Origin: an uncultured Oscillospiraceae bacterium
Lineage (GTDB): Bacteria > Bacillota > Clostridia > Oscillospirales > Oscillospiraceae
DNA length: 43,590 nt
Direction: 5' to 3'
Assembly: GCA_947599875.1 (NCBI GenBank)
Contig: CANQFV010000021.1
Coordinates: 1 to 43,590, forward strand
Part shown: positions 511-43,590 of the stretch, piece after piece
How positions within the stretch are numbered: position 1 is the stretch's first letter
Layout of the letters: the number at the start of each line of letters is the position of its first letter
Position numbers and translations under genes: made by a program
The notes under the pieces: model-generated
What the model saw: the letters and a program-made list of their open reading frames with translations, nothing else
Told to the model about the DNA's origin: nothing
Database searches by the model: none

Positions 511-709
511 TATTTTTTGCGGGGCTTTGCCTCGCAAAAAATCCCTCTTGCCGCGCAACTGTCCAGTCCGCAGACTGGTCGCGCAGCGCGGCAGCAGGAA
601 GCCCCGGCGTGAATTCTGCGGAATTCACGCCGGGGCTTCCGCACGTTCCCCCTTGGCAGGAAAAGGATTTGAGGTTCTCGTCAGAGAACCCCAAATCCTT
701 TTTCGCCAG
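511..709 (-). repeat. 4H element, copy 1 (four covarying hairpins)
   Basis: Read on the plus strand, the order is hairpin 3 (TTTTTTGCGGGGC with GCCTCGCAAAAAA), hairpin 2 (GCCGCGC with GCGCGGC around CCAGTCCGCAGACTGG), hairpin 1 (arms 598-616 and 621-639, core GAATTCTGCGGAATTC), spacer GCACGTTCCCCCTTGGCA, and hairpin 0 (AAAGGATTTGAGGTTCTC and its complement, closing with CGCCAG). The strand is given as minus because hairpin 0, the gene-abutting side in other copies, is at the right end. It lies just upstream of the Asp23-type gene. Confidence 0.85.
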
Positions 710-758
710 ACTTTTTTTGGCGAGGTGAGAAGTTTTCCTTTATTTTTCCCGAAGGGTG

Positions 759-767
759 TGTTAAAAT
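759..767 (+). promoter_or_regulatory. candidate extended -10 promoter for the Asp23/nusB cluster
   Basis: TGTTAAAAT fits an extended -10 (TGn followed by TAAAAT) about 95 bases upstream of the Asp23-type start. No good -35 is visible at 17 bases, so this is a weak call based only on the -10 and on its position between a terminator-like hairpin and the first gene. Confidence 0.35.
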
Positions 768-862
768 GAGGTTTGACCCCTGGCGACCGGGGCTTTTGGC
801 CCGGCGCGGGGACAGTTTGTGGGAATAACGGCCCTTCTGGCCGATTACGCAAGGAGGATCTT

Positions 863-1231
863 ATGGGCGAGAACAGGGAATACATCACCCACCCCGACGA
901 GAAGGGGAGCATCAACATTTCCGAGGACGTGGTCTGCGCCGTCGCCGCCGCCGCGGCGCTGGAGACGGAGGGCGTGGCCGCCCTCTCCGGCGGGCGGGAC
1001 CTTACGGAGCTTCTGGGGAAGAAAAACCCCGGCCGGGGCGTGCGCATCTCCGTTGAGGGGGAGACGGTGAAGGTGGATCTGTGGCTCACCGTCCGCCTTG
1101 GCGTGTCCGTGAACAAGGTGGGGCAGAAGGTGCAGGAGGCCGTGACCTCCTCCATCGAGTCCATGACCGGCTTTACCGTGGATCAGGTCAACGTGCATAT
1201 CACCGGAGTGCTGCTGGCGAAAAAGGCCTGA
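863..1231 (+). CDS. Asp23/Gls24 family envelope stress protein
   Basis: This 122-residue protein belongs to the Asp23/Gls24 family, small cytoplasmic proteins linked to cell-envelope homeostasis in Gram-positive bacteria. What is seen: the typical N-terminal GSINISEDVV segment, a central ALETEGVAALSGG stretch, and a basic/hydrophobic C-terminal half with VRLGVSVNKVGQKVQEAV followed by FTVDQVNVHITGV, which matches the family's full short length. The start was chosen at the ATG preceded by AAGGAGGATCTT, not an upstream in-frame codon that would add 30 residues. Its last codons, LLAKKA and the stop, lie inside the 4H element that follows, so the repeat supplies the end of the gene. In related genomes this gene often precedes nusB, as here. 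Confidence 0.9.
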   Translation: MGENREYITHPDEKGSINISEDVVCAVAAAAALETEGVAALSGGRDLTELLGKKNPGRGVRISVEGETVKVDLWLTVRLGVSVNKVGQKVQEAVTSSIESMTGFTVDQVNVHITGVLLAKKA

Positions 1232-1413
1232 CGGAAACTGGCGAAAAAGGCCTGACGGCCTTTTTCTGCCAAGGGGGACGTGCGGGAAATTTTTCTGAAT
1301 TTTGCGAAATTCAGAAAAAATTTCCCTGCTGCCGCGCTGTGTGCCGCCGGAGGCGGCGACTTGCGCGGCAAGAGGGATTTTTTGCGAGGCAAAGCCCCGC
1401 AAAAAATATTTTA
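1212..1413 (+). repeat. 4H element, copy 2
   Basis: It begins in the end of the Asp23-type gene with CTGGCGAAAAAGGCCTGACG, which is present twice in tandem. Hairpin 0 is AAAAAGGCCTGACGGCCTTTTT, a terminator-like stem. Then come TGCCAAGGGGGACGTGCG, an AT-rich hairpin 1 (GGGAAATTTTTCTGAATTT and its complement), hairpin 2 with an inner CCGCC/GGCGG stem, and hairpin 3 ending AAAAAATATTTT. It lies between the Asp23-type gene and nusB. Confidence 0.85.
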
Positions 1414-1470
1414 AAAGAAAGAATCTGAGCGCTGCAAAAAATTTGAATGACCGTATGCAGGGGATTATTT

Positions 1471-1920
1471 ATGAACAGATCGGAAGCGCGTGAGATAGCC
1501 ATGCGGCTGTGCTATGAGATTTCCGCCCGGGAGTGCGACGCCCGCCAGGTGCTGACCCACTTCTTTGAGGGGGACTACTATGCCTCCCTGGCGTCGGAGG
1601 ATAAGCTGTACGAGTCCTTCCCCCAGGAGAACCACCGGGAATATATCGAGAAGCTGGTCATGGGCGTGGGGGAACACTCGGCGGAGCTGGACGGATATGT
1701 GGCCAAGTACGCCAAGGGGTGGAAATTTGCCCGCATCTCCCGGACGGCCCTGGCGGTGATGAAGACGGCCATGTACGAGATCATGTACATGCCGGAGATC
1801 CCCAACGCCGCGGCCATCAACGAGGCGGTGGAGCTGGCCAAGAAGTACGACGAGCCGGAGACGGTGTCCTTTGTCAACGGGGTACTGGGTTCCTTTGTGA
1901 GGGAAGAGCTGCCGGAATGA
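1471..1920 (+). CDS. nusB: transcription antitermination factor NusB
   Basis: NusB binds boxA RNA together with NusE (S10) and supports antitermination of rRNA operons. The 149-residue product has the usual length and all-helical character. It starts MNRSEAREIAMRLCYE and ends with the characteristic helix IPNAAAINEAVELAKKY followed by SFVNGVLGSFVRE. The ATG at 1471 is preferred because it has an AGGGG just upstream and begins the family's usual N terminus; an ATG 24 bases earlier lacks a ribosome site. The stop overlaps the next start by four bases (ATGA), indicating translational coupling with the TsaD-like gene. Confidence 0.95.
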   Translation: MNRSEAREIAMRLCYEISARECDARQVLTHFFEGDYYASLASEDKLYESFPQENHREYIEKLVMGVGEHSAELDGYVAKYAKGWKFARISRTALAVMKTAMYEIMYMPEIPNAAAINEAVELAKKYDEPETVSFVNGVLGSFVREELPE

Positions 1921-2837
1921 AAAAGCTTGTATTGGCCTTTGATACATCCAACTATACCACCTCCTGCGCCGTCTTTGACGGGGAGCAGGGGGACAATTCG
2001 GGGCGTCTTCTGGACGTTCGGCCCGGGGAACTGGGCCTTCGCCAGTCGGACGCCCTTTTTGCCCATGTGCGCCGCCTGCCGGAGATCATGGACGCGCTGG
2101 AAATCCCGGGGGAGCTTATGGCCGTGGGGGCGTCGGAGACGCCCCGGGAGACGGAGGGCAGCTACATGCCCTGCTTCCTGGCGGGGGTGGCCCAGGCCCG
2201 GGGCATCGCCCGGGTGATGGGGCTTCCCTATTTCGGCTTCTCCCACCAGCAGGGGCACATAGCCGCCGCGGCCTGGAGCGCGGGGCATATGGAGCTTCTG
2301 GACAGGCCCCACCTGGCCTGGCACCTGTCCGGGGGGACCACGGAGCTTCTCCACGTCACCCCTTGCGGCACGGCGGTGCGCTGCCGGATCGTGGGCGGCA
2401 CCCAGGACGTGTCCGCGGGGCAGCTCATCGACCGCACGGGGCAGCTTCTGGGCCTGCCCTTCCCCGCGGGGAGGGAGCTGGACAGGCTCTCCCGGGGCGC
2501 TGTGGAGAAAAGATCCTACCTGCCAAAGGGGGACGGCTGCCGGTTTTCCCTGTCCGGGGTGGAACACAAGATGAAGCAGATGAAGGAGCGGGGGGAGCCG
2601 GCGGAGGAGATCGCCTACTTCTCCCTTGCCAGCGTCATCCGCGCCGTGGCCCAGGCCACCGGTGAGGCGCTGAAGGAGTTGGGGGACCTGCCCGTCCTCT
2701 ACTCCGGCGGCGTGGCCTCCAACTCCCTTCTCCGGGAGCTGACGCCCGGGGGCATCTTCGCCCAGCCCCGGTACTCCACCGACAACGCCCTGGGCACGGC
2801 GATCCTCACCTGGAGGGCGGTGAATTCCCTTGGATAA
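1917..2837 (+). CDS. TsaD/Kae1-family (glycoprotease-like, ASKHA fold) paralogue
   Basis: This 306-residue protein is a divergent member of the Kae1/TsaD (peptidase M22) superfamily. TsaD itself makes the t6A tRNA modification. Motifs seen: an N-terminal DTSNYTTSCAVF phosphate loop, HQQGH (equivalent to the metal-binding HxExH of TsaD, with both histidines kept), HLSGGTTEL, YSGGVASNSLLRE and the late acidic motif STDNALGTAIL. It is shorter than a typical TsaD (about 340) and sits in the nusB-xseA operon where many Firmicutes have folD, so it is probably a paralogue rather than the essential TsaD; its true substrate is not clear. It starts in the nusB stop (ATGA overlap) and overlaps xseA by eight bases. 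Confidence 0.8.
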   Translation: MKKLVLAFDTSNYTTSCAVFDGEQGDNSGRLLDVRPGELGLRQSDALFAHVRRLPEIMDALEIPGELMAVGASETPRETEGSYMPCFLAGVAQARGIARVMGLPYFGFSHQQGHIAAAAWSAGHMELLDRPHLAWHLSGGTTELLHVTPCGTAVRCRIVGGTQDVSAGQLIDRTGQLLGLPFPAGRELDRLSRGAVEKRSYLPKGDGCRFSLSGVEHKMKQMKERGEPAEEIAYFSLASVIRAVAQATGEALKELGDLPVLYSGGVASNSLLRELTPGGIFAQPRYSTDNALGTAILTWRAVNSLG

Positions 2838-4020
2838 CGGCATCCTCTCCGTGACGGAGCTGAACGAGTACCTGAAAAATGTGTTTGACTCCATGCCCGG
2901 GCTTGCCAACGTGTATGTGCGGGGGGAGCTTTCCAACTACAAGGTCTACCCCTCCGGGCACCACTACTTCACCATGAAGGACGCCGGCGGGGCGCTGCGG
3001 TGCGTGCTGTTTCGCTCCTCCGCCGCCCGCCTCCGCTTCCGCCCCGCGGACGGGATGAAGGTCATCGCCACGGGCCGGGTCTCGGTGTACCCCAGGGACG
3101 GGGCGTATCAGCTGTATGTGAACAGCCTGACGCCGGACGGCGTGGGGGAGCTGCAAATGGCCTTCCAGCAGCTGAAGGAGAAGCTCTACGCCCAGGGCCT
3201 CTTCGACCAGGCTCACAAAAAGCCCCTGCCGGCCTGCCCCATGCGGGTGGGCATCGTCACAAGCCCCGCCGGGGCGGCGGTACACGACATCATCCGCGTT
3301 ATGAGAAAGCGCTGGCCCGCGGCAAAGCTCCTGCTTCTGCCTGTGCGGGTGCAGGGGGCGGAGGCCCCGCCGGAGATCATCCGGGCCATTGAATACGCCG
3401 ACCGATACCAGGTGGCGGACGTCCTCATCGTGGGACGCGGCGGCGGGAGTATGGAGGATCTGTGGTGCTTCAATGACGAGGGGGTGGCCCGGGCCATCTA
3501 CCGGTGCAGCATCCCGGTGATCTCCGCCGTGGGCCACGAACCGGACGTGACCATCGCCGACTTTGTGGCGGATGTGCGGGCTGCCACGCCCTCCAACGCC
3601 GCGGAGCTTTGCTCCCCGGACATGGGGGAGCTTCAAAGCCGTCTCCGGGCCTTGGAGGAGCGGGCGGCCGGCGCCTTGGAAAAGCGCCTTGTCTCCGCCA
3701 GGGAGAGGCTGGCCGTCTACGCCGGGGCCAGAGTTCTCCAGCGGCCGGAGAGCTATTTGGACGAGTGCCGCCTTGCCCTGGACGCCCGGGGGGAGAGGAT
3801 CGCCGCCCTGACGGCGGCGGCCCTGGCCACGGCCCGGCGGCGGTACGCGGAGCTGGCGGCGGCCCTGGACGCCATGAGTCCCCTGAAGGTGCTGGGGCGG
3901 GGCTACGCCATCGCCCAGGACGAGTCCGGCCGGGTCATCCGGGAGAAATCGGACGTGAAGAGCGGCGACCTGATCCGGATCCGCCTGCAAAAGGATCGGA
4001 TCGACTGTGTTGTGAAATAA
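2830..4020 (+). CDS. xseA: exodeoxyribonuclease VII large subunit XseA
   Basis: XseA is the catalytic subunit of exonuclease VII, which degrades single-stranded DNA from both ends with XseB. The 396-residue product has an N-terminal OB-fold (about residues 1-100, SVTELNEYLKNVFDSMPGLA), the catalytic domain with VGIVTSPAGAAVHDI and the hallmark GRGGGSMEDLWCFNDE around residue 205, a long alanine- and arginine-rich helical arm, and the C-terminal LKVLGRGYAIAQD segment. The TTG at 2830 is chosen because it follows GGAGGGCGGTG at suitable spacing and begins the normal N terminus. It overlaps the preceding gene and is 15 bases from xseB. Confidence 0.95.
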   Translation: MDNGILSVTELNEYLKNVFDSMPGLANVYVRGELSNYKVYPSGHHYFTMKDAGGALRCVLFRSSAARLRFRPADGMKVIATGRVSVYPRDGAYQLYVNSLTPDGVGELQMAFQQLKEKLYAQGLFDQAHKKPLPACPMRVGIVTSPAGAAVHDIIRVMRKRWPAAKLLLLPVRVQGAEAPPEIIRAIEYADRYQVADVLIVGRGGGSMEDLWCFNDEGVARAIYRCSIPVISAVGHEPDVTIADFVADVRAATPSNAAELCSPDMGELQSRLRALEERAAGALEKRLVSARERLAVYAGARVLQRPESYLDECRLALDARGERIAALTAAALATARRRYAELAAALDAMSPLKVLGRGYAIAQDESGRVIREKSDVKSGDLIRIRLQKDRIDCVVK

Positions 4021-4035
4021 ATCGGGAGGTTTCCA

Positions 4036-4269
4036 ATGGCCACGAAAAAACCCACATTTGAGGAATCCATCGCCCGTCTGGACGAGATCGTCAAGCTCCT
4101 GGAGCGGGGGGAAAGCCCCCTGGATGAGGCCCTGGGCCTCTTTGAGGAGGGGACGAAGCTCATCAAGAGCTGCGGCAAGCTCCTGGACGACGCGGAACAG
4201 AAGGTGGTGAAGCTCCGCCGGGGGCCGGACGGCTCGCCGGAGGAGACGCCCTTTGAGGAGGCGGAGTGA
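4036..4269 (+). CDS. xseB: exodeoxyribonuclease VII small subunit XseB
   Basis: XseB is the small helical partner that binds the arm of XseA in exonuclease VII. The 77-residue product shows the family pattern FEESIARLDEIVKLLERGE followed by PLDEALGLFEEGTKLIKSC, a two-helix hairpin. A GGGAGG ribosome site precedes the ATG. The stop overlaps the ispA start by one base (TGATG), so the three genes are translationally linked. Confidence 0.95.
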   Translation: MATKKPTFEESIARLDEIVKLLERGESPLDEALGLFEEGTKLIKSCGKLLDDAEQKVVKLRRGPDGSPEETPFEEAE

Positions 4270-5141
4270 TGGACGCCTCCCTGCGCCTGCGGGAGCTGAA
4301 GGGGGAGATCGACCGGTATCTCGCCGGCCTCTTCACCCGGGATGTCCCCTGGGGCAAGCTTACGGAGAGTATGCGCTACTCCCTGCTGGCGGGGGGAAAG
4401 CGGCTGCGCCCCGCCCTGACGCTGCTCTTCTGTGAGGCGGCGGGAGGGGAGACGCGGCGGGCCATGCCCCTGGCGGCGGCGGTGGAGCTGATCCACACCT
4501 ACTCCCTGATCCACGACGACCTGCCGGCGATGGACGACGACGACCTGCGCCGGGGCCGCCCCACAAACCATGTGGTGTACGGGGAGGGGCGGGCCATCCT
4601 CGCCGGGGACGCCCTCCAGGCCGGGGCCTTTGAGCTGGCGCTGTCGGCGCCCCTGCCGGCCGGACGCCTGGTGGAGGCCGCGTCGTATCTGGCCTCCTGC
4701 GCCGGAGAGGCGGGCATGTGCGGCGGACAGGAGCTGGACACGGCGGAGGGGACGGACAGGTCCCTCGCCGGCCTTACGCGCTTGAACGACATGAAGACCG
4801 GCGCCCTGCTGCGGGCCGCCTGCGTCCTGGGGGTCATCGCCGCCGGCGGGGAGGAGGAGCTGCGGCGCGCCGCGGAGCTTTACGCCCTCCACCTGGCCCG
4901 GGCCTTCCAGATCCGGGACGACATCCTGGACGTGACGGGGTCTGCCCGGGAGCTGGGAAAGACCGTGGGGTCCGACGCGGCCAACGGAAAGCCCACCTAC
5001 GCGTCCGCCTTGGGGGTGGAGGAGGCGGAGCGGCAGGTCGTGGCGGAGAGTGAGCTTGCAAAAGCCGCCCTCCGGGGGAAATTCCCCGATCCCGGGATCT
5101 TTTGGGCCATAGCCGACCTTTTGGCCGTGAGAAACAGCTGA
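4269..5141 (+). CDS. ispA: geranyl/farnesyl diphosphate synthase (polyprenyl synthetase)
   Basis: This 290-residue protein is a short-chain trans-prenyl diphosphate synthase that condenses isopentenyl diphosphate with allylic diphosphates. Both aspartate-rich metal sites are present: the first is HDDLPAMDDDDLRRG near residue 83 and the second FQIRDDILDVTG near residue 220. GGKRLRPAL near residue 42 binds diphosphate. Length is close to the IspA norm. An in-frame GTG lies directly before the ATG; the ATG is used because it couples to the xseB stop. It is followed, as in other OLE-containing Firmicutes, by the OLE RNA and then dxs, all serving or flanking isoprenoid synthesis. Confidence 0.95.
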   Translation: MDASLRLRELKGEIDRYLAGLFTRDVPWGKLTESMRYSLLAGGKRLRPALTLLFCEAAGGETRRAMPLAAAVELIHTYSLIHDDLPAMDDDDLRRGRPTNHVVYGEGRAILAGDALQAGAFELALSAPLPAGRLVEAASYLASCAGEAGMCGGQELDTAEGTDRSLAGLTRLNDMKTGALLRAACVLGVIAAGGEEELRRAAELYALHLARAFQIRDDILDVTGSARELGKTVGSDAANGKPTYASALGVEEAERQVVAESELAKAALRGKFPDPGIFWAIADLLAVRNS

Positions 5142-5149
5142 TAAACCTC

Positions 5150-5178
5150 TTGCATAATATCGAAAGATACTGTATAAT
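5150..5178 (+). promoter_or_regulatory. sigma-A type promoter for OLE RNA
   Basis: TTGCAT (5150-5155), a 17-base spacer and a perfect TATAAT (5173-5178) lie just after the ispA stop. A start near 5185 would begin transcription at the observed 5' edge of the OLE RNA. This suggests OLE can be made independently of read-through from the nusB-ispA operon. Confidence 0.75.
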
Positions 5179-5185
5179 AAAAAGA

Positions 5186-5823
5186 AGCGGCGCAGTATCC
5201 TAGTCGGAGCCGGCGTCTCCTAAGAAGGGCCTAAAAATCCTTTGAAGGGCACATCGTTGAAGCCTCTTGTGTTTGCTTGGAACGCCCAGTTCCGGGTGGA
5301 TGCTGGAGGGAGGCGGAATTTTTTTCGGCCTGCATCTTCAGGGCGACCGTCAATGGCATGACGGCCTCGACCCTGCTGGTGTGGAGACCCGGAATCGTGG
5401 TCAGGCGTACTCCCCTTGGGTCAGCGACCTGATTACGAACCGGGGTTTAAACCTGTATTGCGGTGCGATCTGAAGGGTAGACTTTTTGAGTTCAACCTGT
5501 GCTGTGTGCAGAGTAGCCTGCCTTGAGTGGAACATGCGGATAGGGGAGCTACGCGCCCCCTGCCCCGGCCAGGGTGTGGGGCGATATCCCCTTGAAATAT
5601 GTTCTGCAAAAGAGGCTAAAGAGACGTTTCGCTTCGTCATGGAAAACATCTAGGCTGTCCATCGGGCGAGCAGGGGATTGCAGTGCGGCCTTAGTGGCGA
5701 TCGGGTGACCGGACCGGCGACGTCCGGAACGGAGCTTCAATGGGAAACCGCCCTCACGGCAACGGGGGGCAGCTCCGGGGGAAAGCCAACCCGACCTATG
5801 CCGCAAGATTTATTCTGTTCGCC
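5186..5823 (+). ncRNA. ole: OLE RNA (ornate, large, extremophilic RNA)
   Basis: A non-coding gap of about 640 bases lies exactly between ispA and the OapA-type gene/dxs, the diagnostic place of OLE RNA in Firmicutes. Length matches OLE (about 600-650 nt). The frames crossing it lack codon bias and ribosome sites. The interior is rich in local stems, for example GGAGCCGGCGTCTCC at the 5' end, CCGGAC/GTCCGG at 5709-5727, and a highly structured GC-rich 3' part; the segment GAAGGGTAGACTTTTTGAG near 5473 resembles the conserved core as I remember it. Known of the family: OLE is membrane-associated through OapA and contributes to growth under stress, including cold, alcohols and Mg2+. The ends are inferred from the promoter and the terminator. 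Confidence 0.88.
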
Positions 5824-5880
5824 GCCGCCTTCACGCGGTCAAGGGATCCGTTGACCGCGTGAAGGCGGCAAACTTTTTTT
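5824..5880 (+). terminator. strong intrinsic terminator after OLE RNA
   Basis: A perfect 19-bp stem (5824-5842 with 5851-5869, loop GGGATCCG) is followed by AAAC and seven T. It would end OLE transcripts or strongly reduce read-through into oapA-dxs. A second GC hairpin (CCGGGGG/CCCCCGG, 5882-5902) stands between it and the oapA ribosome site. Confidence 0.85.
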
Positions 5881-5915
5881 CCCGGGGGGCGTGTACCCCC
5901 GGATGAGAGGACAAT

Positions 5916-6452
5916 ATGAAACGAAAAACCAACATCAAATGGATCGTTGAGATCGTGGTCATCTCCGTGGTCATGTCCGTGATCTTCTCCTTCACCTCGT
6001 CGGAGATCCTGGAGGGCGCGGGGTACATAGTGGCGTTTATCCTGCTCCTGGCCTTTGTGGTCCTGGGCGTGATGTTCGACGTGGTGGGCGTGGCCGTCAC
6101 CTCCGCCACGGAGACGCCCTTCCACGCGATGGCCTCCCACAAGGAGCGGGGCGCCCGGGAGGCGCTGAAGCTCCTGCGCCACGCCGAGCGCGTCAGCTCC
6201 ATCTGCAACGACGTGGTGGGGGACATCTCCGGCATCATCTCCGGCGCCACGGCGGCGGTGATCGCCGGGAAGCTCAGCCAGGATCTGAGCGTCTCCTCCG
6301 TGGTCACGTCCCTGCTTGTCACGGGTGTGGTCTCCGGCCTCACCATCGGCGGCAAGGCGGTGGGCAAGGGCATCGCCCTCGATAAAGACACACAGATCGT
6401 GTTTATGGTGGGCAAGCTCATGGCGCTCCTGCCCCGCTTCGGAAAGAAATAG
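5916..6452 (+). CDS. oapA: OLE-associated membrane protein OapA
   Basis: This 178-residue membrane protein lies directly downstream of the OLE RNA and upstream of dxs, the standard position of OapA, the protein that binds OLE and brings it to the membrane. Four hydrophobic segments are visible: about residues 9-26, 36-60, 100-120 and 125-145. Between segments 2 and 3 runs a conserved-looking stretch DVVGVAVTSATETPFHAMAS followed by a basic helix KERGAREALKLLRHAERV, a plausible RNA-contact region (inference). The C terminus is basic (LPRFGKK). The ATG has GAGAGGA upstream. The call rests on synteny and topology together. Confidence 0.88.
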   Translation: MKRKTNIKWIVEIVVISVVMSVIFSFTSSEILEGAGYIVAFILLLAFVVLGVMFDVVGVAVTSATETPFHAMASHKERGAREALKLLRHAERVSSICNDVVGDISGIISGATAAVIAGKLSQDLSVSSVVTSLLVTGVVSGLTIGGKAVGKGIALDKDTQIVFMVGKLMALLPRFGKK

Positions 6453-6463
6453 ATCCCAACCGG

Positions 6464-6492
6464 CCCCCGCCGTGACCCTGCGCGGGGGTTTT
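6464..6492 (+). terminator. possible weak terminator/attenuator between oapA and dxs
   Basis: The stem CCCCCGC (6464-6470) with GCGGGGG (6482-6488) is followed by TTTTCC. The short T run suggests partial termination or an mRNA-stability hairpin, not a full stop, because dxs starts 17 bases later with no clear promoter of its own. Confidence 0.5.
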
Positions 6493-6508
6493 CCTCAAGA
6501 GGTTTACC

Positions 6509-8380
6509 GTGAGTATATTAGAACATCTTGCCTACAGAGACATAAAGCTCCTCACCGACGAGCAGGTGAACACCCTGTGCGGGGAGCTGCGTGAGGCCGT
6601 CATCCGGACGACGGCCAGGCAGGGAGGACATCTGTCCTCCAACCTGGGCGTGGTGGAGCTGACGGTTGCCATCCACCGGGTGTTTGACACAAGCCGGGAC
6701 AGGCTGCTCTTTGACGTGGGCCACCAGAGCTACGTCCACAAGCTCCTCACCGGCAGGGCGGCGGAATTTGATACGCTCCGCTCCTTCGGGGGCATCTCCG
6801 GCTTTCCGAAGCCGGAGGAGTCGGTACATGACGCCTTTGTGGCGGGCCACGCCTCCTCCGCCATCTCCACGGCGCTGGGTATGGCCAGGGCCAGGACCCT
6901 GTCCGGGGAGAATTACTCCGTCGTGGCCCTGGTGGGGGACGGCGCCCTCACCGGGGGATTGTCCTACGAGGGGCTGTGCGACGCCGGCGCCAGCACGGAG
7001 CCGCTGATCGTCATCCTCAACGACAACGGCATGTCCATCAACAAAAACGTGGGCGGTATGGCGCTGTACCTCAGCCGCCAGCGGCTGAAGCACGGGTATA
7101 TCGCCTTTAAAAACTTCTACCGCCGCCTTATGCGCAAGCTCCCCGGGGGGAAGCGGGTCTACGCCCTGACCCACAGGATTAAGCAGACGGTGAAGGAGGC
7201 CATTTTCCACTGCTCCATGTTTGAGGACATGGGCTTCACCTACTTAGGGCCGGTGGACGGGCACAACATCAAGGCCCTCACCGCCGCGCTGAAGATCGCC
7301 CAGGAGGCGGGGGAGCCTGTCCTGGTCCATGTCATCACCAAAAAGGGCAAGGGCTGCCCCTGGGCCGAGGAGAACCCGGACGCCTTCCACGGCGTCAGGG
7401 GCTTTGACCCTGTGACCGGCCGCATCCCCCCCGCGGGGCCGGACTTCTCCCGGGTCTTCGGGGAGGAGCTTTGCCGGATCGGCCAGGAGGAGCCGCGCCT
7501 TGCCGCCGTCACCGCCGCCATGCCCTCCGGCACGGGGCTTACGGAGTTTGCCCGCCGCTTCCCGGAGCGGTTTTTCGACGTGGGCATCTGCGAGGGCCAC
7601 GCCGTGAGCATGTCCGGCGGCGCGGCGAAGCAGGGGCTGATCCCGGTGTTCGCCGTGTACTCCACCTTCCTCCAGCGCGGCTACGACATGCTCCTCCAGG
7701 ACGTGTGCCTGGGCCGGGAACACGCCGTTCTGGCCGTGGACAGGGCCGGGATCTCCGGCGAGGACGGGGAGACCCACCAGGGCAGCATGGACGTGAGCTT
7801 CCTCACCAGTATGCCCAACATGACCGTCTGGTCCCCCGCCAGCTTCGCGGAGCTGCGGGATATGCTGCGCCAGGCGGTTTTTACGGAGACCGGCCCCGTG
7901 GCCGTCCGCTACCCCAAGGGGGCGGAGGGGGAGTACACCCTGGGCGGGGCCGAGGCGGTGAGCCTCCTGCGCCGGGGCGAGGATTTCACCCTCCTCACCT
8001 ACGGCATCAGCGTGAACACGGCCCTGAGGGCCGGGGCGCTTTTGGAAAAGCGCGGGATCATGACCGATGTGATCAAGCTGGGGCGGATCAAACCCCTGGA
8101 GTTGGAGGACGTGGCCCGGTCGGTGCGCAGAACAGGGCGGCTTCTGGTGCTGGAGGAGGCCGTGGCCACGGGCTGCGTGGGGCAGCAGGTTGCGGCGGCC
8201 CTGGCGGAAATGGGCGTGCCGGTTCGGACGCTGATCTTAAAAAATCTGGGGGACCGGTTCATCCCCCACGGCACGGTGGAGGAGCTTCGCCGGATGTGCG
8301 GCATCGACGCGGTGAGCGTGGCGGACGCGGTGTCCCGGGCATTGGATGCGGGGGAGGACAATGGCAAAGACAAGACTTGA
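6509..8380 (+). CDS. dxs: 1-deoxy-D-xylulose-5-phosphate synthase
   Basis: Dxs condenses pyruvate and glyceraldehyde 3-phosphate in the first step of the MEP isoprenoid pathway. The 623-residue product has the usual length and domains: an N-terminal thiamine-diphosphate module with GGHLSSNLGVVELTVA and HASSAISTALGMA, the cofactor motif VGDGALTGGLSYEGL near residue 150, the pyrimidine-binding DRAGISGEDGETHQG near residue 415, and a transketolase C-terminal domain ending in DRFIPHGTVEELRRMCG. The start is a GTG with AAGAGG upstream and gives the expected MSILEHL N terminus. It overlaps tlyA by 20 bases. It shares the locus with ispA, so the two isoprenoid genes flank OLE/OapA. Confidence 0.96.
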   Translation: MSILEHLAYRDIKLLTDEQVNTLCGELREAVIRTTARQGGHLSSNLGVVELTVAIHRVFDTSRDRLLFDVGHQSYVHKLLTGRAAEFDTLRSFGGISGFPKPEESVHDAFVAGHASSAISTALGMARARTLSGENYSVVALVGDGALTGGLSYEGLCDAGASTEPLIVILNDNGMSINKNVGGMALYLSRQRLKHGYIAFKNFYRRLMRKLPGGKRVYALTHRIKQTVKEAIFHCSMFEDMGFTYLGPVDGHNIKALTAALKIAQEAGEPVLVHVITKKGKGCPWAEENPDAFHGVRGFDPVTGRIPPAGPDFSRVFGEELCRIGQEEPRLAAVTAAMPSGTGLTEFARRFPERFFDVGICEGHAVSMSGGAAKQGLIPVFAVYSTFLQRGYDMLLQDVCLGREHAVLAVDRAGISGEDGETHQGSMDVSFLTSMPNMTVWSPASFAELRDMLRQAVFTETGPVAVRYPKGAEGEYTLGGAEAVSLLRRGEDFTLLTYGISVNTALRAGALLEKRGIMTDVIKLGRIKPLELEDVARSVRRTGRLLVLEEAVATGCVGQQVAAALAEMGVPVRTLILKNLGDRFIPHGTVEELRRMCGIDAVSVADAVSRALDAGEDNGKDKT

Positions 8381-9158
8381 CGTGCTTTTAACGGAGCGCG
8401 GCCTTACGGAGAGCCGGGAGAAGGCCCGGGCCGTCATCATGGCCGGGGAGGTATTCGTCAACGGCCAGCGGGCGGATAAGCCGGGCACGGCCTACGACCC
8501 GGACGTCCGGGTGGAGGTTCGCGGCGGCACGCTGAAATACGTCTCCCGGGGCGGGCTGAAGCTGGAGCGGGCGCTGGATTTCTTCGGCGGGGATCCCCGG
8601 GGGCGGGTCTGCCTGGACTGCGGCGCCTCCACCGGGGGCTTTACCGACCTTATGCTCCAGCGCGGCGCCGTAAAGGTCTACAGCGTGGACGTGGGCTACG
8701 GACAGCTGGCCTGGCAGCTGCGCTCGGACCAGCGCGTGGTGGTGATGGAGCGGACGAACGCCCGGTATCTCACCCCGGACATGTTCCCGGAGACCCCGTC
8801 CCTGGCCGGGGTGGACGTGAGCTTTATCTCCCTGGCCCTGATCCTCCCGGCCATCCGCCGGGTGCTGACGGAGGACGGGGAGGTGTTCTGCCTGATCAAG
8901 CCCCAGTTTGAGGCCGGCCGGGAGAAGGTGGGGAAGAAGGGTGTCGTCCGGGAGCCAGAGACCCACTTAGAGGTGCTGGAGAGCTTCCTCCACAACGCCG
9001 AAAACGCCGGCTTCCGGGTGGAGAACGTGACCTACTCCCCCATCAAGGGGCCGGAGGGGAATATCGAGTATTTGGGGCACCTGGTGTCCCATGCGTGTGA
9101 AAACAGGGCCGTTCTGCCGGATGTGGTGGCGGAGGCCCACGCCGCTTTGCGGGGGTGA
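8361..9158 (+). CDS. tlyA: TlyA family rRNA (cytidine-2'-O)-methyltransferase
   Basis: TlyA-type proteins (often named hemolysin A or YqxC) methylate the 2'-OH of cytidines in 16S/23S rRNA. The 265-residue product has an N-terminal S4 RNA-binding domain (RLDVLLTERGLTESREKARA to VFVNGQRADKPG) and an FtsJ-like methyltransferase domain with the SAM motif CLDCGASTGGFTDLML near residue 85, then VDVSFISL and a late CLIKPQFEAGREKVGKKG. The start ATG, preceded by GGGGAGG, lies within the end of dxs. The order dxs-tlyA-argR-recN is conserved in Firmicutes. Confidence 0.93.
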   Translation: MAKTRLDVLLTERGLTESREKARAVIMAGEVFVNGQRADKPGTAYDPDVRVEVRGGTLKYVSRGGLKLERALDFFGGDPRGRVCLDCGASTGGFTDLMLQRGAVKVYSVDVGYGQLAWQLRSDQRVVVMERTNARYLTPDMFPETPSLAGVDVSFISLALILPAIRRVLTEDGEVFCLIKPQFEAGREKVGKKGVVREPETHLEVLESFLHNAENAGFRVENVTYSPIKGPEGNIEYLGHLVSHACENRAVLPDVVAEAHAALRG

Positions 9159-9162
9159 GGAC

Positions 9163-9981
9163 TTGGGCAAGGTACTTCTTTTTTCCAATCCCGACAGGGA
9201 CGCGGGTCTCGCCGCCTGCGGCGCCGTGGCCCGGATCTTAGGGGATCTGGGCCGGGAATACGCCGTGTGTACGGATGCCAGGACTCTGGCGGAGCTTGAC
9301 CGGGACGCGCCGCTGTGTGTGGCCTTCGGCGGGGACGGCACCATCCTCCACGCCGCCCGGGCCTTGTGCCGTGCCGGCACCCCCATTCTGGGGGTGAACC
9401 TGGGGCACACGGGCTTTATGGCGGAGCTGGAGGCCGGGGAGCTGGAGCTTGTGCGGCAGGCCTTTGAGGGCCGCTTCACCCTGGAGGAGCGGATGATGGC
9501 GGACGTGACGGCCTTCCGGGACGGGCAGGCAATCTTCCGGGATTTCGCCCTGAACGAGGCAGTCCTGGGCGGCGTCTCCCGGGTGGTGGGCGTCAACGTC
9601 TACGGCGACGGCCGCAGGATCATGGGCTTCTCCGGGGACGGGGTCATCGTCTCCACCCCCACGGGGTCCACGGCCTATTCCATGTCCGCCGGGGGGCCTA
9701 TCGTGGAGCCGTCCGCCAGCAGTCTTGTGGTGACCCCCGTGTGCCCCCACGTCCTGTCCGCCCGGAGCTATGTGCTGTCGCCGGAGCGGACAGTCACCCT
9801 GGAGGTGAGGAGCCTGGGCGGGAAGAGCGCCTACCTGTCCGTGGACGGCGGCCAGGCCCTGGATCTTACGGAAAACGACAGGATCGAGGTGCGGAAAAGC
9901 CGGCTGATCACGCGCCTGGTGCGCATTACCGGCCGGAGCTTTTACGACAAGGTAAACAGGAAGCTGGGGGATCACGCGTGA
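9163..9981 (+). CDS. nadK: NAD kinase
   Basis: This enzyme phosphorylates NAD to NADP. The 272-residue product shows the family motifs AFGGDGTILHAAR near residue 50, LGHTGFMAELE, and GDGVIVSTPTGSTAYSMSAG near residue 160, which together form the NAD and ATP sites. The start is taken as TTG at 9163, four bases after the tlyA stop, because GGGGGTGAGG precedes it and the resulting MGKVLLFSNPDRD fits the usual N terminus. It ends with a GTGA overlap into argR. Confidence 0.95.
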   Translation: MGKVLLFSNPDRDAGLAACGAVARILGDLGREYAVCTDARTLAELDRDAPLCVAFGGDGTILHAARALCRAGTPILGVNLGHTGFMAELEAGELELVRQAFEGRFTLEERMMADVTAFRDGQAIFRDFALNEAVLGGVSRVVGVNVYGDGRRIMGFSGDGVIVSTPTGSTAYSMSAGGPIVEPSASSLVVTPVCPHVLSARSYVLSPERTVTLEVRSLGGKSAYLSVDGGQALDLTENDRIEVRKSRLITRLVRITGRSFYDKVNRKLGDHA

Positions 9982-10424
9982 AATCGGAACGTCAGGAAAA
10001 GATCATGGAGCTTATCTCCACCTACGACATCGAGACCCAGTCGGAGCTGGCAAGGCGTCTGGCCGCAATGGGCATCCGGACGACCCAGGCCACCCTGTCC
10101 CGGGACATCCGGGCCTTGGGGCTGAGCAAGGAGCCCTCCGCCTCCGGCCGTCAGCGGTATGTGGCGGCCAAGAACCGGGCCGTGGACACAAAGGAGCGGC
10201 TGCGCAGCATCTTCCGGGAGTGCGTGGTCAGCGTCACCCGCGCCCAGAACCTTGTGGTGATCAAGACCCTCCCCGGCCTTGCCCCCGCCGCCTGCGCGGC
10301 CATAGACCGGATGGACATCCCGGGCCTTGCCGGGACCATCGCCGGGGACGATACGGCGTTTCTGGCCCTGTCGGACGACGACGCGGCGGAGGCGCTGTGC
10401 CGGAATATGCGCCGGGGCCTGTGA
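9978..10424 (+). CDS. argR: arginine repressor ArgR
   Basis: ArgR is the hexameric, arginine-sensing regulator of arginine metabolism. The 148-residue product has the N-terminal winged helix (KSERQEKIMELISTYDIETQ with TTQATLSRDIRALGLSK) and the C-terminal oligomerisation and arginine-binding domain with GLAPAACAAIDRM and the GTIAGDDTAFLAL motif. It begins with GTG inside the nadK stop. No arginine genes are in the window; its place before recN follows the Bacillus ahrC-recN order. Confidence 0.95.
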   Translation: MKSERQEKIMELISTYDIETQSELARRLAAMGIRTTQATLSRDIRALGLSKEPSASGRQRYVAAKNRAVDTKERLRSIFRECVVSVTRAQNLVVIKTLPGLAPAACAAIDRMDIPGLAGTIAGDDTAFLALSDDDAAEALCRNMRRGL

Positions 10425-10469
10425 CCCGGCGGACGGGGATCTATAAAGAGAGAAAAGGAGGCTGTTTCC

Positions 10470-12143: not shown

Positions 12144-12147
12144 CAAG

Positions 12148-31249: not shown

Positions 31250-31454
31250 AATATTTTTTCCAAGGACATGTGCCTTGGAAAAAATCCCTCTTGCCGCGCA
31301 AACGTGCGCCCTTGGGCGTGCGCTGCAGCGCGGCAGCAGGAAAGGGCCTCTGGAATTCCGCAGAATTCCAGAGGCCCTTTCCGCACGCATCCCCTTGGCA
31401 GAAAAAGGCTGATGGGGTTCTCATCAGAGAACCCCATCAGCCTTTTTCGCCAGC
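31250..31454 (-). repeat. 4H element, copy 7
   Basis: Plus-strand order: hairpin 3 with perfect CCAAGG/CCTTGG (TTTTTTCCAAGG, loop ACATGTG), hairpin 2 with inner GCGCCC/GGGCGTGC, hairpin 1 (GAAAGGGCCTCTGGAATTC and its exact complement, loop CGCA), GCACGCATCCCCTTGGCA, and hairpin 0 (AAAAAGGCTGATGGGGTTCT with its complement, then TTCGCCAGC). Hairpin 0 starts directly after the stop codon of the MIF-type gene. Confidence 0.85.
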
Positions 31455-32163: not shown

Positions 32164-32202
32164 TAAGGAATTTTTTCCGACGCGCATGTCGCCGGAAAAA
32201 AG
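32127..32202 (+). repeat. partial 4H element, copy 8 (hairpins 2 and 3 only)
   Basis: Only the inner hairpin 2 part (CGCACGGCCCGGAGGGGCCG), the closing arm GTGTGACATAAGGAA and hairpin 3 (TTTTTTCCGACG with CGCCGGAAAAAA) remain. The sequence closely matches copy 11 at 34654-34880. The left half is missing exactly where the HAD remnant begins. Confidence 0.8.
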
Positions 32203-32240
32203 TTTGAAGTTGAGCTTTTTGACAAACGGGCAGTTGCGTC

Positions 32241-33083: not shown

Positions 33084-33127
33084 GTCTCGCCTCAGTTTGT
33101 ACAGTAATAGTAATGGTATATCAATCC

Positions 33128-33353
33128 AAATATTTTTTGCAAGGACATGTGCCTTGCAAAAAATCCCTCTTGCCGCGCAAGTGTGCGGCCCTCCGGGCCG
33201 TGCGCGCAGCGCGGCAGCAGAATCTCCGGGGCGAAATTCTAATTTCGCCCCGGAGATTCGCACGCATCCCCCTGGCAGGGAAAGGCCTTTAGACCTTTCC
33301 CGCCAGAGTCGCTCCCCTTGGCAGGGGAAGGTCTTCAGGCCTTCCCCGCCAGC
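33128..33353 (-). repeat. 4H element, copy 9
   Basis: Plus-strand order: hairpin 3 (GCAAGG/CCTTGC, loop ACATGTG), hairpin 2 (inner GTGTGCGGCCC with GGGCCGTGCGCGC, pairing through several G-T wobbles), hairpin 1 (GAATCTCCGGGGCGAAATT with its complement; shorter core), GCACGCATCCCCCTGGCAGG, and two tandem hairpin 0 units (GGGAAAGG/CCTTTCCC and GGGGAAGG/CCTTCCCC, each closed by TGGC/GCCA). The last unit encodes the final residues of acetate kinase. Confidence 0.85.
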
Positions 33354-34617: not shown

Positions 34618-34653
34618 TAGGGAAAATCAAAAAAGGCCATAAGGGCTTTTTTG

Positions 34654-34880
34654 GCTGGCTTTGAAGGCCGCAAAGCGGCCTTCAAATGCCAAAGGGGAAC
34701 GGAGGCTGGCGAATAAGGCCTGGCGGGCTTTTCCGACAAAGGGAACGCGTGCGGGGAATTTTTCTGAATTTTGCGAAATTCAGAAAAATTTCCCTGCCGT
34801 CACGCTGCGCGCACGGCCCGGAGGGCCGTACACTTGCGTGACATAAGGGATTTTTTCCGACGCGCATGTCGCCGGAAAAA
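34654..34880 (+). repeat. 4H element, copy 11
   Basis: It starts with GGCTTTGAAGGCCGCAAAGC and a second hairpin 0-like unit (GGCTGGCGAATAAGGCC). Hairpin 1 is AT-rich (GGGGAATTTTTCTGAATTT with complement, as in copy 2). Hairpin 2 has GTCACGC/GCGTGAC in place of GCCGCGC/GCGCGGC, so both arms have changed together. Hairpin 3 is TTTTTTCCGACG/CGCCGGAAAAA. It lies between the ackA promoter and tmcAL. Confidence 0.85.
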
Positions 34881-34946
34881 TGTTGAATTGGGGCTTTCTG
34901 GGAAAGACCCTTGAGCTTACTGAAAAATGCTGAGGAGTGGAGAAGG

Positions 34947-38776: not shown

Positions 38777-39108
38777 AAGGTTCCCGCAGGGGAAGAAGTC
38801 CGCCTGAAAGGCGGAGGGGAGTCTCCCGGGGGGGACGGGGAGTTTCCCCGACGGGGGAATAAGGTGTCCGCCCAAAGGGCGGACGGGGGTATTTTACTTT
38901 CTCCCTTTGGTTCCGCCAAAGGGAGAAAGTAACAAAGAGGGAAAGCGGCCAGGGGGGATTTCGATTTCCCCCCTGGACCCCCTTGAACCGACCAGTTAGG
39001 GGGCTGCGGCCCCCTACTGGAGAAACCCCCGGGGAGCCCCCCGGAGGTTTTCTGGACGAATGGGTATTGAGCAGCCACCCGGTGGTGCATCGCGCCCGTT
39101 GGACTGAG
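38777..39108 (+). repeat. left arm of a long imperfect inverted repeat
   Basis: This arm contains, in order, GTCCGCCTGAAAGGCGGAGG, GTGTCCGCCCAAAGGGCGGA, ACTTTCTCCCTTTGG with its complement, GTAACAAAGAGGGAAA, GGGGGATTTCGATTTCCCCC, TTGAACCGACCAGTTAGGGG, GGAGAAACCCCCGGGG and GCGCCCGTTGGACTGAG. The same blocks in reverse order and strand make up 39898-40262. It contains no gene. Confidence 0.85.
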
Positions 39109-39194
39109 AAGGTGTGACAAAGGGGACGGTTCTTTTGTCACATCGGAGCAAAGCGGAGATGGGACTAAAGAACCGTCCCTCTGTAACGCCGGGC
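39108..39194. repeat. R2 inverted-repeat element
   Basis: Arms GGGGACGGTTCTTTTGTC and TAAAGAACCGTCCCTC flank a CATCGGAGC/GGAGATGGG inner stem, then TGTAACGCCGGGCCA. It is the inner neighbour of the long inverted-repeat left arm. Confidence 0.75.
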
Positions 39195-39249: not shown

Positions 39250-39390
39250 GCCCCTACTGTGTGTAAGAGTCCCCCTGTAGGGGCCGATGACCTCATCGGC
39301 CCGTGCGGGTTGGGTGACAGAGCGGTTGCGTTAAGATGGAAAACTTTAAAATATGCCGTAGGGGCCGCCGCCCACGGCGGCCCGTGCCGC
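39250..39390. repeat. R3 repeat cluster
   Basis: Modules GTAGGGGCCGATGACCTCAT and GTAGGGGCCGCCGCCCACGG are joined by GGGTTGGGTGACAGAGCGGT and TTAAGATGGAAAACTTTAAA. The same pair and linker recur at 39640-39752. Confidence 0.75.
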
Positions 39391-39444
39391 GATGATTGAG
39401 GGCGGTATAATAAACGGGGGAAGGGCAGCGTCAAGCGCCCCGGG

Positions 39445-39535
39445 AAGCCGGTGTTACACGGGGACGGTTCTTTTGTACCACCGCAGCGTCAGCGGAGGTG
39501 TGACTAAAGAACCGTCCCCGTGTCACACCGGCTCC
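39445..39535. repeat. R2 inverted-repeat element
   Basis: Arms GGGGACGGTTCTTTTGT and TAAAGAACCGTCCCC enclose ACCACCGC/GCGGAGGT. It begins GGGAAGCCGGTGTTACAC, the complement of its own end. Confidence 0.75.
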
Positions 39536-39574: not shown

Positions 39575-39626
39575 AATATTTTTTGCGGGGCTTTGCCTCG
39601 CAAAAAATCCCTCTCGCCGCGCAAGT
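39575..39626 (-). repeat. partial 4H element, copy 10 (hairpin 3 and one arm of hairpin 2)
   Basis: TTTTTTGCGGGGC with GCCTCGCAAAAAA forms hairpin 3, followed by TCCCTCTCGCCGCGCAAGT, after which the similarity stops. It is a truncated copy inside the inverted-repeat block. Confidence 0.75.
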
Positions 39627-39639
39627 TGGAAAATGGTTC

Positions 39640-39752
39640 CCTGTAGGGGCCGATGACCTCATCGGCCCGGGCGGGTTGGGTGACAGAGCGGTTGCGTTAA
39701 GATAGAAAACTTTAAAATTTGCCGTAGGGGCCGCCGCCCACGGCGGCCCGCG
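39640..39752. repeat. R3 repeat cluster (second copy of 39250-39390)
   Basis: It repeats GTAGGGGCCGATGACCTCAT, GGGTTGGGTGACAGAGCGGT, the TTAAGATAGAAAACTTTAAA linker and GTAGGGGCCGCCGCCCACGG almost exactly, as a direct repeat. Confidence 0.75.
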
Positions 39753-39762
39753 TCGTCACCGG

Positions 39763-39854
39763 GAAGCCGGTGTTACACGGGGACGGTTCTTTAGTCACAC
39801 CTCCGCTTCGCTGCGGTGGTACAAAAGAACCGTCCCCGTTGTCCCACCTCCTCA
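39763..39854. repeat. R2 inverted-repeat element
   Basis: Arms GGGGACGGTTCTTTAGTC and AAAGAACCGTCCCC enclose CACCTCCGC/GCGGTGG, and the unit ends TTGTCCCACCTCCTC. Confidence 0.75.
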
Positions 39855-42723: not shown

Positions 42724-42732
42724 AAAAGACAC

Positions 42733-42810
42733 AGTTTCCCGGGGCCAACGCCTCGGGAAACTCTTTAAAAACAAAAATACAAAATCGCCCGGTGGGGCCG
42801 GGCCGATTTT
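42733..42810 (+). terminator. two hairpins between nrdD and nrdG
   Basis: The first stem is AGTTTCCCG with CGGGAAACT. The second is AAAATCG-CCCGG with CCGGG-CCGATTTT (42781-42810). The latter ends in only four T, so it may be an attenuator or an mRNA-processing site that lowers nrdG output relative to nrdD and is less likely to be a full terminator. Confidence 0.5.
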
Positions 42811-42846
42811 GGAAGGAGGAACGGCGCCGGCGCCGGTGACGGGAAG

Positions 42847-43365
42847 ATGTATTACGGAGAGATCAAAAAATGCGATATTGCCGACGGGGAGGGGGTGCGG
42901 GTGACGCTCTTCGTCTCCGGCTGCACCAACCACTGCGAGGGGTGCTTCCAGCCTCAGACCTGGGATTTCCACTTCGGAAAGCCCTTCACCCCGGAGACGG
43001 AGGCGGAGCTTCTGGAGCTTCTGGCCCCCTCCTATATCAACGGCCTCACCCTTTTGGGCGGCGAGCCGATGGAGCCGGAAAACCAGCGGGCGCTGCTGCC
43101 CTTCGTCCGGCGGGTGAGGGAGACCCTGCCGGATAAGACCGTCTGGTGCTACTCCGGCTTCACCCTGGAGGAGCTGCTCGCCGACGGCTCCCACCCCCGG
43201 TGCGAGGTCACGGATGAGCTGCTGTCCCTCATCGACGTGCTGGTGGACGGCAGATTCATCCTGGCGCAGAAGGATATCTCCCTGAAGTTCAGGGGGTCCC
43301 GGAACCAGAGGATTATCGACCTGCCTGAGACGCTGAAGACGGGGAAAATAAAAATACTGGCTTGA
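42847..43365 (+). CDS. nrdG: anaerobic ribonucleotide reductase activating protein (radical SAM)
   Basis: NrdG is the radical-SAM activase that generates the glycyl radical on NrdD. The 172-residue product has MYYGEIKKCDIADGEGVRVT, the cluster motif CTNHCEGC (CxxxCxxC) with FQPQTWDF, LTLLGGEPME, VWCYSGFTLEEL and IDVLVDGRFILAQKD, all typical of NrdG. A strong AAGGAGG lies about 30 bases before the ATG, too far for normal use; the gap contains the self-complementary GGCGCCGGCGCC, which could fold and bring the two together (inference). The last codons KILA and the stop come from the 4H element that follows. Confidence 0.94.
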   Translation: MYYGEIKKCDIADGEGVRVTLFVSGCTNHCEGCFQPQTWDFHFGKPFTPETEAELLELLAPSYINGLTLLGGEPMEPENQRALLPFVRRVRETLPDKTVWCYSGFTLEELLADGSHPRCEVTDELLSLIDVLVDGRFILAQKDISLKFRGSRNQRIIDLPETLKTGKIKILA

Positions 43366-43590
43366 AAGGCCGCAGGGGGCTAAACTGGCTTGAAAGGCCA
43401 CAGGGGTCTTCTGGCGAGGGCAGCTTTCAGCGCCTTTCCGGGCTTTTGCGTAACCCCTGCGGCCTTTCAATGCCAAGGGGATGCGTGCGGAAAACGGCTC
43501 CTGAATTCTGCGGAATTCAGGAGCCGTTTTCCTGCTGCCGCGCTGCAGCGCACGCCCAAGGGCGCACGTTTGCGCGGCAAGAGGGATTTT
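43353..43590 (+). repeat. 4H element, copy 12 (cut by the window end)
   Basis: It begins in the end of nrdG with CTGGCTTGAAAGGCCGCAGG, repeated nearby as in copy 3, then CCCTGCGGCCTTTCAATGCC, AGGGGATGCGTGCG, hairpin 1 (GGAAAACGGCTCCTGAATTC with its complement, loop TGCG), and hairpin 2 (GCCGCGC...GCGCGGC, inner ACGCCC/GGGCGCACGT). Hairpin 3 lies beyond the window. Confidence 0.85.

Follow-up and report, generated by a model that had tools for sequence, protein, structure and literature searches.

The DNA analysed here, called the window below, is a contig of 43,590 nucleotides (CANQFV010000021.1, or C21; assembly GCA_947599875.1) from an uncultured Oscillospiraceae bacterium. It holds twelve copies, two of them partial, of an intergenic element termed 4H, in which a terminator-like hairpin (H0) and a linker containing CGTGCG are followed by three further hairpins (H1, H2 and H3). 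We conclude that 4H is probably a mobile element, similar to the miniature inverted-repeat transposable elements (MITEs), with terminator hairpins as insertion targets that become duplicated. This is concluded because in relatives repeats flank defined ends, and because letter-identical copies occupy different terminators. The copies of the window are likely to be the local, expanded and worn form of this gene-less element, which belongs to the family and order of the genome.

A covariance model (R1) was built from 38 copies, 32 from the window genome and six from relatives. When related Oscillospiraceae genomes were searched, as a preliminary description of this DNA had proposed, the element proved to be widespread in genus, family and order. 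Within the genus R1 has matches at E ≤ 1e-6 in 29 of 34 genomes. Across the family, at E ≤ 1e-3, matches occur in 87 of the 200 genomes sampled and in 57 of the 106 genera; the family-wide matches were inspected in part, 27 loci of other genera being read and 40 more fetched. A second model (R2), made from 77 copies in relatives, detects the element across the order in 37 of the 295 genomes sampled and in 21 of the 148 genera (E ≤ 1e-5), spanning six families with the window's own included. Of five loci taken from other families, four have the H2-H3 core; at the fifth, L261, the coordinates used missed this core. By eye, most loci read from other genera have H3 followed by a fourth hairpin (H4) and ACTCTGCGAGGC, and many distant copies share a GYRCAYGYC-like H3 loop. 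An exact 21-mer is found in two named records, both metagenome-assembled genomes labelled 'uncultured Oscillospiraceae' from the isolate set Lapin, presumably rabbit; it is absent from viral contigs, which were searched as possible phage carriers. The element is present in many gut bacteria.

Ends of the element and duplication of hairpins

The upstream flank of each element was compared with its downstream flank, mismatched pairs serving as the null. For copies from other genera the null has its 99th percentile at a score of 13 and its maximum at 26; 23 of 67 attain the former, and 17 have scores of at least 24. In the same genus 12 of 28 copies score at least 15 (null 99th percentile 12, maximum 17). 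Using a slightly longer flank, 33 of the 95 pooled copies from relatives score at least 15. The lengths of these 33 repeats are 19-48, and 29 of them form a stem of at least 8 pairs. Whatever the length of the repeat, its boundaries lie at or close to the stem base, a median of 0 and 1 unpaired bases from it, the largest distance being 9, in a set of 29 repeats (28 of the stem-forming ones plus L170; L082, L103, L117 and L144 excluded). The right-hand copy has a mean of 5.9 T in 12 bases, and the duplicated stem-loop seems to be the neighbouring gene's terminator. The flanking hairpins are mutually inverted in 2 of the 33 cases, and one further pair was found only as inverted; at L125, L172 and L149 the arrangement looks as if the palindrome had flipped. 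A scan of window positions 1000-14700 for consensus terminators gave 11 sites, with 10.7 expected.

The intact element between the repeats measures 166-261 bp (20 copies listed). This is too short for a transposase gene, and there is no coding capacity. In relatives the ends are short, imperfect inverted repeats, with CAGnnTGTCGA as the left and TYGACAnnCTG as the right one. Allowing up to two mismatches, the terminal motif adjoins the repeat on the left in 26, on the right in 23 and on both sides in 22 of the 33 copies, compared with 3/33 and 0/33 in control windows outside the repeat. One genome, G064, carries two letter-identical 261-bp copies on different contigs, inserted in two different duplicated hairpins. 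The pair of terminal motifs with a flanking repeat recurs in 8 of 20 further regions of G064 (nine elements, one being L124 again).

Individual sites are polymorphic. At lepA, G064 carries the element between two near-identical terminator copies, oriented against the gene, and it is absent by eye from all eight evaluable genus mates (a ninth match is a fragment). Of 28 same-genus infB loci, 27 were readable, the other having no recognisable gene end. By eye four of the 27 have the full element, four a left hairpin and H3, and six a lone H3-like hairpin; in three a different insert lies between two hairpin copies as well, and ten have none of these. The four full loci (G338, G306, G000 and G231) encode IF2 that is 93-94% identical to the G338 query, yet each has H1 outer arms of its own. 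The different insert (L251, L253 and L254, at the infB 3′ ends of G117, G402 and G270) is about 200 bp, lies between two GGGAGGGGAATTATCCCCTC-like hairpins and has the right end GTCTACAGTCTG; it is perhaps a sister element that shares the same habit.

Placement was examined for 181 copies (86 from the window genome, 67 from other genera and 28 from the same genus, none of these a random sample). Convergent genes flank 64 of them and divergent genes 4. Of those at tandem genes 61 follow the gene direction and 20 oppose it, and for 32 a gene call is lacking on one side. Co-orientation is uninformative between convergent genes, so direction was judged from tandem pairs only. Where a flanking repeat is present, an upstream gene was called for 30 copies; 28 share its orientation, and in 26 of these 28 the left hairpin lies -13 to 41 bases from the stop codon; the tandem copies with a repeat are 5 with and 2 against the gene direction.

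These arrangements suggest how insertion might proceed. In relatives the intact element consists of a left-end hairpin, H1, H2, H3 and, in most distant loci read, H4, enclosed by the inverted ends; it lies between two copies of a stem-loop resembling an intrinsic terminator, into which it probably inserts at the 3′ ends of genes. Each strand of the target hairpin, perhaps extruded, would be cut at its 5′ base and the element joined, after which gap filling would copy the hairpin on both sides; the transposase would act in trans. A run of T seems to follow the right hairpin copy as a tendency, and the first hairpin of the element seems often to end in one, so that the host gene would keep a terminator and the insert would be tolerated. 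A small mobile-element family of many genera would then be settling in transcription terminators and duplicating them, providing many natural cases in which to study how a recombinase might recognise a hairpin rather than a sequence.

Hairpins are themselves the substrate of recombinases at attC sites and at the ends of IS200/IS605. 4H might move as a cruciform or in single-stranded form, with a recombinase acting on its conserved hairpins and recognising the target hairpin likewise. Almost every duplicated stretch is a hairpin and has the length of one, and a few flanking hairpins are inverted as described above. The internal hairpins are conserved across the order, whereas MITEs need only their ends, and low G-U content together with a conserved unpaired position in H3 (below) would also fit. 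By contrast, terminal inverted repeats with a target duplication are the outcome of a DDE transposase, and HUH enzymes give no target duplication; no enzyme was found in the searches described below. We regard movement as folded DNA as rather unlikely. The same low probability is given to its fuller form, in which both partners of the reaction are folded DNA: the element's hairpins, single-stranded or cruciform and kept complementary by copying of arms in DNA, are joined into an extruded terminator hairpin that sets the length of the duplication. If it were true, the host terminator would serve as an 'att site', and hairpins, not sequence, would be recognised across an order of gut bacteria.

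The copies in the window and its genome

The cores of the twelve copies listed in the preliminary description all lie where it placed them, to within a few bases, as judged from the sequence and from model matches. The covariance model that it called for matches all twelve, including both partial ones, although four window copies are among those used to train R1, so that their match is by construction. Ten copies score 100-159 bits, one of these being cut at the contig end, and the partial copies score 53 bits (32069-32205) and 33 bits (39575-39725). The features are as follows.

507-709, minus strand: copy 1, comprising H0 with a TTCTC-type stem, H1, H2 and H3 (sequence; R1 156.7 bits at 507-653)
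1238-1271, plus strand: copy 2, H0, CTGGCGAAAAAGG..CCTTTTTCTGCCA, directly after the upstream stop codon (sequence, fold)
1272-1283, plus strand: copy 2, linker AGGGGGACGTGC, with CGTGCG at 1279-1284 (alignment)
1284-1326, plus strand: copy 2, H1, variable arms flanking GAATTTTGCGAAATTC (fold, alignment)
1331-1369, plus strand: copy 2, H2, GCCGCGC/GCGCGGC enclosing an inner stem (fold, pair counts in relatives)
1378-1406, plus strand: copy 2, H3, T6-GCGAGGC/GCCCCGC-A6 (fold, pair counts in relatives)
13182-13447, plus strand: copy 3, long H0 CTGGCTTGAAAGGCCGC..CCCCTGCGGCC, then H1-H3 (R1 158.9 bits at 13298-13444)
14216-14480, minus strand: copy 4, its H3 end toward copy 3 across other repeats (R1 156.3 bits at 14218-14362; fold)
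26976-27160, minus strand: copy 5 (R1 146.2 bits at 26976-27123)
29605-29806, plus strand: copy 6, H1 arms partly mismatched (R1 100.6 bits at 29659-29802)
29983-30016, plus strand: possible right-end remnant AATATTGAAATTGAGTTTTTTGACAAGCTG, then a terminator-like hairpin (by-eye comparison with same-genus right ends)
31248-31456, minus strand: copy 7 (R1 155.8 bits at 31250-31395)
32127-32205, plus strand: copy 8, partial, the 3′ part of H2 and H3 (R1 52.8 bits at 32069-32205)
33126-33353, minus strand: copy 9, with a tandem pair of H0 hairpins (R1 148.6 bits at 33129-33272; sequence)
34650-34886, plus strand: copy 10, H2 outer stem GTCACGC/GCGTGAC (R1 133.9 bits at 34740-34885)
39575-39626, minus strand: copy 11, partial, the 3′ arm of H2 and H3 (R1 33.4 bits at 39575-39725)
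43350-43590, plus strand: copy 12, cut at the start of H3 by the contig end (R1 113.5 bits at 43476-43590, cut 3′)

Alignment and folding bear out the shared layout of H0, CGTGCG linker, H1, H2 and H3 flanked by T6 and A6. The CGTGCG motif is invariant across the ten window copies aligned, H1 is built around GAATTCTGCGGAATTC, and AAGAGGGA forms the linker between H2 and H3. Compared with dinucleotide shuffles, the two copies folded (2 and 4) give z values of -7.3 and -8.3. The contig ends at 43590, inside copy 12, so the repeat probably broke the assembly. We note that at 1214-1271 the last codons of the upstream gene and its stop (CTGGCGAAAAAGGCCTGACGG) recur as the 5′ arm of H0 of copy 2; look-alike gene ends also precede the copies at 13155 and 43353.

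In the 2.73 Mb genome the 23-mer TTGCGCGGCAAGAGGGATTTTTT, running from the end of H2 to the start of H3, occurs 113 + 97 = 210 times with up to three mismatches, and the reversed pattern used as control 0 + 0 times. At least 210 core copies in one genome would mean added hairpins at many gene 3′ ends. Ordinary terminators made alike by convergence, or an artefact of assembly, might be considered in view of how common intrinsic terminators are at gene ends and of the position of copy 12 at the contig end. The empty control, the model matches in more than half of the family's sampled genera and in other families, and the defined ends and duplications make such an origin extremely improbable.

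Sixty stretches were fetched around copies from a list of perfect 23-mers, and the sample is hence biased toward that sequence. Together with the window they gave 88 matches at up to five mismatches, of which 86 could be parsed and two could not. H0 belongs to several stem families and is sometimes two hairpins in tandem; it ends in at least 4 T in 32 of the 86. The arm versions reported for H2 and H3 are real, with the correction that the inner part of H2 and H3 each come in three main versions, which combine freely. Permutation p values are 0.17 for H2 with H3, 0.42 for H1 with H3 and 0.10 for H1 with H2, and H0 is weakly linked with H1 and H2 (0.012 and 0.009). H1 is diverse, but the earlier figure of at least six versions was far too low, since the 86 copies have 68 distinct sequences.

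Genes of the window genome were called with a simple home-made gene caller. No copy of the 86 lies inside a called gene. The upstream gene is co-oriented for 71 of 84 copies and opposed for 13, two more having no called upstream gene. Spacings between stop codon and linker cluster at about 45-48 and 64-72, fitting the length of H0. At L016, L077 and L082 there are some 65-120 extra bases within H2, rich in further hairpins.

Complementarity of the hairpin arms

The 77 copies from relatives were aligned to R1; note that the alignment is fitted to the R1 structure and that its rows are related. The observation that the arms change together holds in this set, where two-sided changes occur at 42 of 44 pairs. 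Pairing is found in 92.8% of cells, against 40-57% when the partners are slid, and the covariation score is 0.648 compared with 0.158 after shuffling. Because pairing and two-sided changes far exceed these controls, the complementarity is real and old.

The preliminary description had taken such compensation by itself to argue for selection on the folded form. That step is unsupported in this form in view of the mobile insert, the exchange of hairpins and the scarcity of G-U pairs. Part of the joint change of the arms is exchange of whole hairpins between copies, as the infB site and the free combination of H2 and H3 indicate. G-U pairs, which selection on RNA would be expected to tolerate, make up 1/522 paired cells in the H2 outer stem and 3/868 in H3, together 4/1390. 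The corresponding figures are 36/477 for 23 tRNAs from the same loci (Fisher p 5e-18 against the H2 outer stem and H3) and 7/348 for the duplicated stems (p 0.002); the H2 inner stem has 5/332 and H1 58/1160. This scarcity is a pointer to upkeep at the DNA level, and no proof of it. The complementarity of H2 and H3 seems to be kept at least partly at the DNA level, with a contribution from RNA possible. The arms might stay complementary mainly by exchange of whole hairpins, by copying from arm to arm or through a need for DNA hairpins in transposition, and an RNA function would be a possible extra on top of this. The habit of hairpin-duplicating insertion, which is rare, may help to explain why the arms stay complementary.

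A different explanation is that 4H is a functional RNA of 3′ untranslated regions, for example one that stabilises mRNA or binds a protein, its covariation reflecting selection on the RNA fold with copying secondary. Two-sided changes at nearly all pairs and the excess of pairing over slid partners agree with this, as do the position after stop codons, the co-orientation of most window-genome copies and the excess of tandem copies in the direction of the genes (61 with, 20 against). There are also conserved unpaired motifs, CGTGCG in the window and the GYRCAYGYC-like H3 loop in distant copies. By contrast, the H2 outer stem and H3 have hardly any G-U pairs when set against tRNAs, and H1 of the window genome has single-arm states of 17 G-U and 13 A-C, without a clear excess of G-U. 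Moreover whole hairpins are exchanged between copies, and the occupancy of a single site differs among species whose IF2 is 92-94% identical. An RNA function as the main cause is doubtful, if somewhat less so than movement as folded DNA.

The interpretation of 4H as a mobile element with arms maintained in DNA has to be weighed against several observations that do not favour it. Low G-U is a weaker sign than it seems, because the duplicated stems themselves have only 2%. Across genera the single-arm states of H1 are 58 G-U and 24 A-C, as RNA selection would give. In 16 of 45 single-pair comparisons between H1 neighbours, which are non-independent, both arms had changed, pointing to stepwise compensation. 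One position of H3 stays unpaired in 55 of 77 rows, mostly as A-C, and plain copying of arms would erase it. Among relatives 62 of 95 copies have no flanking repeat at a score of at least 15; the repeats at L082 and L103 are probably due to chance, and that at L144 is the element's own left hairpins. Scores in four readable loci of other families are 8, 8, 9 and 8, and flanking repeats are absent there. None of the 86 window-genome copies exceeds the null maximum of 14, and the two that pass the 99th percentile (11) are without a terminator-like repeat. No autonomous element with 4H ends was seen in the 20 G064 regions or at 13 loci with IS30 transposase matches, other transposase families not having been searched.

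Terminal inverted repeats and duplication are features seen in the relatives. As no sampled copy in the window genome has a convincing flanking repeat, we infer mobility there from the relatives; either these copies lost the right end and the duplication, or the two were never present. For repeat families in general there is a warning here, that strong 'covariation' may stem from exchange at the DNA level, beside RNA selection.

Known families, candidate enzymes and neighbouring repeats

In an Rfam search of the window only OLE RNA was found, at another place, with no match to 4H at gathering score, and at 13 loci searched with E up to 5 no family is common to the elements. Other Rfam matches were rejected as weak or as belonging to neighbours (OLE, T-box, tRNA). 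The titles and abstract beginnings listed in searches of the open literature, a scope outside which most subscription papers and all preprints fall, contain no description of a 4H-like element. Within these sources no catalogued RNA family matches 4H, and the statement that no element of this layout has been described stands. In the same sources, what is new is a MITE-like family with terminator-hairpin targeting, IS1630 (below) being the precedent for a hairpin-long duplication.

Prokaryotic MITEs are described in the sections consulted of PMC10969869 as intergenic, shorter than 500 bp and forming stable stem-loops, with inverted ends and direct repeats around younger copies; they are said there to be typically AT-rich. 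The 4H relatives are likewise short and non-coding, with terminal inverted repeats and target duplication (33/95). They differ in that the target is a terminator-like hairpin and it is this hairpin that becomes duplicated, in that the internal hairpins are conserved across genera with changes on both sides of their pairs, and, going by that account of MITEs, in a G+C content of 44-67% for the copies measured. The same sections describe the pneumococcal BOX, RUP and SPRITE repeats as multi-copy, intergenic, clustering and nesting, SPRITE resembling rho-independent terminators (PMC10969869). As far as this description goes 4H is also a multi-copy intergenic repeat that clusters, but both host and sequence differ. 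BOX-type repeats have a modular build, and we know of no flanking hairpin duplication for BOX, RUP or SPRITE. REP/BIME palindromes, mobilised by RAYT, are extragenic hairpins present in hundreds of copies; the 4H relatives differ from them in having terminal inverted repeats and target duplication.

IS1630 of Mycoplasma fermentans, a member of the IS30 family, is reported to target and duplicate inverted repeats of variable length (Calcutt et al., cited in PMC3317919). In the portion of PMC3317919 used here it is 1.2-1.4 kb, with an IS30-like transposase and 27-bp ends, and its duplications in strain M64 are 16, 23, 25 and 26 bp. By this account it is like the 4H relatives in duplicating a hairpin or inverted repeat of variable length on insertion. 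Unlike IS1630, 4H has no coding content, and none of the 13 IS30 loci examined here has ends that match it.

The 4H copies might be mobilised by an IS30- or IS1634-family transposase of the same genomes. The reported habit of IS1630 speaks for this, as do IS30 transposase matches in 10 of 21 carrier genomes, 8 of them above the cut-off. The other 11, the window genome included, have no IS30 match, and the best inverted ends at the 13 IS30 loci are unlike those of 4H (TTGTGTTACA in three), with one isolated 4H-type end motif (L206). An IS1634 transposase was found in 1 of the 21 genomes. IS30 and IS1634 were consequently rejected as candidates, and mobilisation by either is improbable. A search of one genome for an autonomous copy by the terminal motif returned only 234-261-bp spans with a repeat. 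Searching for Pfam HTH_38 gave mostly weak matches, and L200, the single locus whose open reading frames were read, is sigma-factor-like by eye. Retrotransposition through mRNA was dropped, as the inverted ends speak against it. At L209, L211 and L216 IS30-family elements with TTGTGTTACA ends seem by eye to adjoin terminator-like hairpins, and these elements may likewise target hairpins.

The OLE RNA (RF01071) lies on the plus strand at 5171-5844 of the window (423.7 bits, E 3.1e-121). Two other repeat families occur near 4H. GTAG-led REP-like hairpins (GTAGGGGCCGAYGACCTCRTCGGCCC) adjoin 4H copies and are better REP candidates than 4H. Hairpins of the GGTGTGACACGGGGACGGTTCTTTAGTCACACC type also occur in the neighbourhood of 4H; those at 13480-14228 lie between two copies that face each other.

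83-143, 13712-13968, 30788-30973, 39280-39393 and 39646-39759: GTAG-led hairpin family
268-411, 13480-13568, 14085-14228 and 26724-26867: GGTGTGACACGGGGACGGTTCTTTAGTCACACC-type hairpins
30998-31141, 39104-39192, 39443-39531 and 39761-39849: GGTGTGACACGGGGACGGTTCTTTAGTCACACC-type hairpins, continued

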